From the NCBI RefSeq assembly GCF_900187945.1, contig NZ_FYEH01000001.1:372001-436000 (forward strand): 64,000 bases of DNA. Reading direction: 5' to 3'. Below are positions 11,563-11,595 of the stretch, piece after piece (the stretch's first letter is position 1; the number at the start of each line of letters is the position of its first letter). The notes below the pieces were generated by a model that saw only the letters and a list, made by a program, of their open reading frames with translations, was not told the origin of the DNA and made no database searches. The DNA is from Arboricoccus pini (GTDB lineage: Bacteria > Pseudomonadota > Alphaproteobacteria > Geminicoccales > Geminicoccaceae). Both the position numbers and the translations under genes were made by a program.

Positions 11563-11591
11563 GGGAAAGGTTAAAAGCCTTTCCCTTTTTT
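11563..11591 (+). terminator. Intrinsic terminator or attenuator between rpmA and obgE
   Basis: GGGAAAGG (11563-11570) pairs perfectly with CCTTTCCC (11578-11585) across a 7-base loop and is followed by six Ts (11586-11591). The obgE ATG lies only four bases after the T run, so a transcript that starts upstream must pass this hairpin to express obgE. The purine-rich GAAGGAGGG, the best Shine-Dalgarno-like string nearby, overlaps the 5' arm of the hairpin. Confidence 0.85.
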
Positions 11592-11595
11592 CGTC

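Follow-up and report, generated by a model that had tools for sequence, protein, structure and literature searches.

The window, a stretch of 64,000 nt from Arboricoccus pini (contig NZ_FYEH01000001.1, positions 372,001 to 436,000), carries on its forward strand the ribosomal protein genes rplU and rpmA followed by obgE, with a hairpin and T tract between the last two. The elements of the locus, in window coordinates, are as follows.

10828..11136, + strand: rplU (L21), from its ORF and the gene order rplU-rpmA-obgE
11260..11529, + strand: rpmA (L27), the last gene 5′ of the predicted terminator, from its ORF and translation
11558..11564, + strand: AAGGAGG, a Shine-Dalgarno (SD)-like string at the base of the 5′ arm and candidate SD of obgE if the hairpin is looped out, from sequence and relatives
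11563..11570, + strand: 5′ arm of the stem, GGGAAAGG, from sequence and folding, with pairing preserved by double changes in relatives
11571..11577, + strand: loop, TTAAAAG, from sequence; not conserved among relatives
11578..11585, + strand: 3′ arm of the stem, CCTTTCCC, from sequence, folding and double changes in relatives
11586..11591, + strand: T tract of six T, the expected 3′ end of the rplU-rpmA mRNA, from sequence and folding
11592..11595, + strand: spacer CGTC 5′ of the obgE start, from sequence
11596..12636, + strand: obgE (cgtA), the sole copy in the genome, from its ORF, a whole-genome search and homologues in relatives

ObgE, an essential GTPase, has links to the stringent response and to assembly of the 50S subunit; how much of it is made in proportion to the ribosomal proteins is likely to matter. 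The gap between the end of rpmA (11529) and the obgE ATG (11596) measures 66 nt. Within it the order at 11563–11598 is GGGAAAGG-TTAAAAG-CCTTTCCC-TTTTTT-CGTC-ATG, such that the stem ends 10 nt before the ATG; the stretch from the stem foot through the ATG (11558–11598) reads AAGGAGGGAAAGGTTAAAAGCCTTTCCCTTTTTTCGTCATG. The start at 11596 is secure, since the N-terminus MRFLDSAK is the usual Obg start among relatives and an in-frame TAA at 11572–11574 rules out a start farther upstream. A search of the whole genome (4.07 Mb, 28 contigs) revealed a single obgE, and homologues are found in all 31 genomes of the family comparison set (Geminicoccaceae, order Geminicoccales), a sample in which the group of loci resembling this one is small.

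The initial annotation had described a perfect 8-pair stem with six Ts directly before the obgE ATG, ending four bases (CGTC) short of it, and an SD-like string overlapping the 5′ arm. Direct reading of the sequence bears out each of these points: the eight perfect pairs, five of them G-C, are followed immediately by six T, and AAGGAGG shares two bases with the arm. The 96-nt region folds with −38.4 kcal/mol (z = −4.1), a value equaled by none of 200 shuffles. In the minimum-energy fold AAGGAG is itself paired, with the U tract as its partner, which gives a 16-pair stem covering the SD-like string. A generic terminator scan passed over this obgE-proximal site, which was picked up by a purpose-written scan yielding 44 terminator sites in 1.26 Mb of the genome, with the GGGAAAGG stem present only at the obgE site; the stem pattern likewise has a single genome-wide match, in the rpmA-obgE gap. 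The notion that a hairpin close to a start codon is a rarity in this genome was dropped, 9 of 1082 starts (taken from simple ORF calls) having one vs 7.6 expected from shuffles. It is the combination of hairpin, T tail and conservation in relatives that exceeds chance, not a hairpin near a start alone. Searches against Rfam gave only weak matches in the window (E 0.09–0.86 at a permissive threshold), none at the gathering score, and in ten relatives tRNAs only. From its sequence, the hairpin with its T tract is predicted to be the intrinsic terminator that closes the rplU-rpmA mRNA.

To place this terminator in context we compared 108 alphaproteobacterial loci with an rpmA-obgE distance of less than 300 nt; 74 of these possess a T-tailed hairpin in the gap. 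A frequent stem type is GGGGAATGG-N4-CCATTCCCC, as in L189, L198, L235, L243, and L248. When 241 whole genomes were searched with the pattern GGGGAAYGG-N3-6-CCRTTCCCC, 39 sites emerged in 38 genomes; placed by their coordinates relative to obgE, and by reading the sequence where these were ambiguous, 35 lie just 5′ of obgE and three elsewhere, with one not placed. The reversed control pattern was matched in three genomes. A shared 6-mer in the 5′ arm is found in 44.7% of pairs of rpmA terminators vs 6.8% for shuffled arms; for terminators downstream of rpsI in the same class the figure is 1.5%, the same as for shuffled arms, and rpsO, intended as a second control, provided too few good terminators. 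The GGGGAATGG-type stem at rpmA is conserved in primary sequence and is nearly locus-specific. This class-wide conservation suggests selection on the read-through ratio, or the exact strength, of the terminator, or alternatively on some factor that reads the sequence. Within the family, conservation of the hairpin, proposed earlier as a check, was also found: double changes keep the stem pairs, which supports the hairpin itself. The T tail is retained in 18 family loci with this hairpin.

How, then, is obgE transcribed? Two options had been put forward, read-through of the terminator and transcription starting inside the hairpin, and of these the geometry supports the first. Since there is one obgE, no promoter-like site in a simple scan, and only 10 nt between stem and ATG, expression of the gene must pass the terminator unless a transcript starts in the hairpin; the space after the terminator appears to offer neither room for a promoter nor a conserved −10 element. 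The second option amounts to a complete terminator plus a separate obgE promoter, with a start in the hairpin or T run and a leader of a few nucleotides. It draws on the loop, which in this genome is A/T-rich (TTAAAA) and might act as a −10 box. Relatives that share the layout have CGCG, TCTG, TCGACG, or TCGCGG in its place, and with the A/T loop not conserved, a promoter inside the hairpin was discarded as a reading. A simple scan found no promoter-like site, a weak test in that alphaproteobacterial promoters can differ. We consider a separate promoter very improbable.

Read-through also has parallels in other bacteria. The E. coli operon reportedly runs rplU-rpmA-yhbE-obgE, an arrangement ascribed to Maouche et al. 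in 2016. There too obgE lies downstream of rplU-rpmA, and a terminator sequence was found 3′ of rpmA; in E. coli, however, this intrinsic terminator is followed by yhbE, from whose start it is about 70 nt away, with a whole gene separating it from obgE, compared with 10 nt here. In P. aeruginosa, the obgE start codon is where transcript 3′ ends accumulate, and a 23-fold rise in obgE goes with a 42-fold fall in these ends (PMC8297930). This gives obgE attenuation at this place a precedent, in that RNA ends where the gene starts and more obgE is made once that ending is relieved. No intrinsic terminator is reported at the P. aeruginosa site, for which the authors leave the mechanism undecided (PMC8297930), whereas a hairpin and T tract are present here. 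In B. subtilis, rplJL is attenuated by L10(L12)4 (PMC4538822), again a ribosomal-protein operon under transcription attenuation; there the regulator is a ribosomal protein, whereas at the present locus neither a ligand nor a competing antiterminator structure was identified.

Expression of obgE by read-through is a well-supported prediction, backed by the 10 nt from stem to ATG, the single obgE, the class-wide terminator 3′ of rpmA, and the E. coli and P. aeruginosa precedents; geometry and gene order all but compel it. With a leaky rplU-rpmA terminator, most polymerases would halt in the T tract, approximately 5 nt before obgE, and the remainder would read through, making obgE mRNA a fraction of the L21/L27 mRNA.

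The terminator itself is class-wide; what is peculiar to the Geminicoccaceae is the position of the hairpin beside obgE. In 64 of the 74 loci with T-tailed hairpins the stem ends at least 18 nt 5′ of obgE (far loci). Nine loci from seven genera, all Geminicoccaceae (L001, L005, L007, L016, L021, L022, L023, L029, and L030), have a stem end 8–14 nt 5′ of the ATG (near loci). Outside this family the distance from the end of the hairpin to obgE is 19 nt or more, with one weak AT-rich exception. This is L205, an unrelated AT-rich genome in which a weak 5-pair T-tailed hairpin (CCTTT-AAAGG) lies 9 nt 5′ of obgE without an SD; its near position is probably due to chance. A further family locus, L031, has its stem end at 17 nt and falls outside the parser's near and far counts.

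The near position goes together with a second property. Of the 9 Geminicoccaceae near loci, 8 have GGAGG at the base of the 5′ arm (8 of 10 near loci if L205 is included), vs 1 of the 64 far loci (Fisher p = 2.6e-8, treating loci as independent of kinship); across the class, terminators in this gap usually have A residues there instead. No near locus has an SD-like 4-mer 3′ of the hairpin. The association is inflated by kinship: on the ObgE tree the near-plus-GGAGG state needs six changes, of which supported branches force at least three. Near-plus-GGAGG may be the ancestral state, lost several times. The one Geminicoccaceae near locus lacking GGAGG, L022, has GAGAGG in its place. Comparisons between close kin agree with the association: in L031, which is nested with L029 and L030, the stem has moved, the foot is without GGAGG, and AAGGA stands beside the ATG; L007 has both T tract and GGAGG, and its sisters L006 and L008 have neither.

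The earlier remarks on the SD-like string had left out the possibility that GGAGG at the stem foot serves as the obgE SD through looping out of the hairpin, and the relatives point that way. Constrained folding of the eight GGAGG loci reveals looped-out spacings of 12, 8, 10, 9, 9, 10, 9, and 9 nt, vs linear distances of 28–36 nt; at the A. pini locus the linear distance of 31 nt becomes 10–12 nt. The arrangement recurs in several genera, albeit kin-related ones. The 16S rRNA of this genome ends in the standard anti-SD (GGATCACCTCCTTT), and its SD 4-mers, counted on the same simple ORF calls, concentrate at −17 to −8 with a peak at −11, which the looped-out spacing of 8–12 nt fits. In read-through RNA the hairpin would fold between AAGGAGG and the AUG, and a 30S subunit bound at the stem foot would reach the obgE AUG across the shortened gap. 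Such bridging is known from phage T4, where a hairpin cuts the SD-AUG spacing of genes 38 and 25 from 22 to 5 and from 27 to 11 nt, respectively (PMC3014915). The likeness lies in a spacer looped out by a hairpin that brings a distant SD into range, here from 28–36 to 8–12 nt. The T4 hairpins are not described as terminators, whereas the present one is followed by the T tract that completes the predicted terminator of the upstream operon; and in T4 the bridging was established by experiment (PMC3014915), whereas here we surmise it from the relatives and the T4 precedent.

The energetics at the A. pini locus are close to balance. Freeing the SD costs 12.5 kcal/mol vs −12.4 kcal/mol gained by SD:anti-SD pairing, and bridging would therefore be marginal here. 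From folding, pairing between the U tract and the SD would hold translation low until the outer pairing opens. This raises the possibility of a switch in which the 16-pair stem buries the SD and a factor, temperature, or a ribosome is needed to open it before obgE can be translated, a scheme with which the AAGGAG:UUUUUU pairing of the minimum-energy fold and the high opening cost agree. Against it, four of the eight near loci with GGAGG need just 2.5–4.5 kcal/mol for opening, their SD being partly free, and an opened SD lying 28–36 nt from the AUG would fail unless the gap were shortened. We regard such a switch as improbable.

A simpler possibility is a leaky terminator and nothing more, with obgE started without an SD, e.g., through the pyrimidine-rich stretch before the AUG, and GGAGG being incidental or merely the partner of the U tract, with which it does pair in the folds. 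In this genome an SD 4-mer accompanies only half of the unambiguous starts, again from simple ORF calls, so obgE could start without one. Five loci of one genus-level group (L004, L006, L008, L010, and L015) agree with this: they have lost both T tract and GGAGG, keep a gap of 51–55 nt, and have no SD before obgE. The T-less hairpins of L004, L010, and L015 were considered as proof of a translational role and dropped, as only L010, with an 8-pair G+C hairpin 9 nt 5′ of the ATG, clearly beats shuffles (p = 0.0025, vs about 0.1 for L004 and L015). An incidental GGAGG is harder to reconcile with its near absence from the feet of far loci and with its appearance precisely in loci whose hairpin sits too close to the ATG for an SD to fit between them. 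A leaky terminator alone is, in our estimation, rather unlikely, if a more serious contender than the switch.

A terminator doubling as an SD-AUG bridge would fit the comparisons made. The best explanation overall, and one toward which we lean, is a leaky terminator that is read through, after which the same hairpin may bridge SD and AUG. That one hairpin performs two jobs in series, terminating most rplU-rpmA transcripts and bridging the SD to the obgE AUG on those that escape, is a more tentative proposition, to which we would give not quite an even chance. If true, terminator and ribosome-binding site would be one physical element, and a single stem would set ObgE output twice. A stop signal serving also as the scaffold for the start site of the next gene would constitute a compact lock on the ratio of ObgE to ribosomal proteins, and would demonstrate that a gene can have an intrinsic terminator right at its ATG and yet need no promoter of its own.

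Two further features lie 5′ of rplU. An ORF of 700 aa (window 8642–10744) appears to encode a molybdopterin oxidoreductase-like protein. At 10766–10783, 45 nt 5′ of rplU, stands a hairpin, GCACGTC-AGGC-GACGTGT, followed by TTCTTCGTCC, which could be the terminator of the oxidoreductase gene before it or part of the rplU leader.
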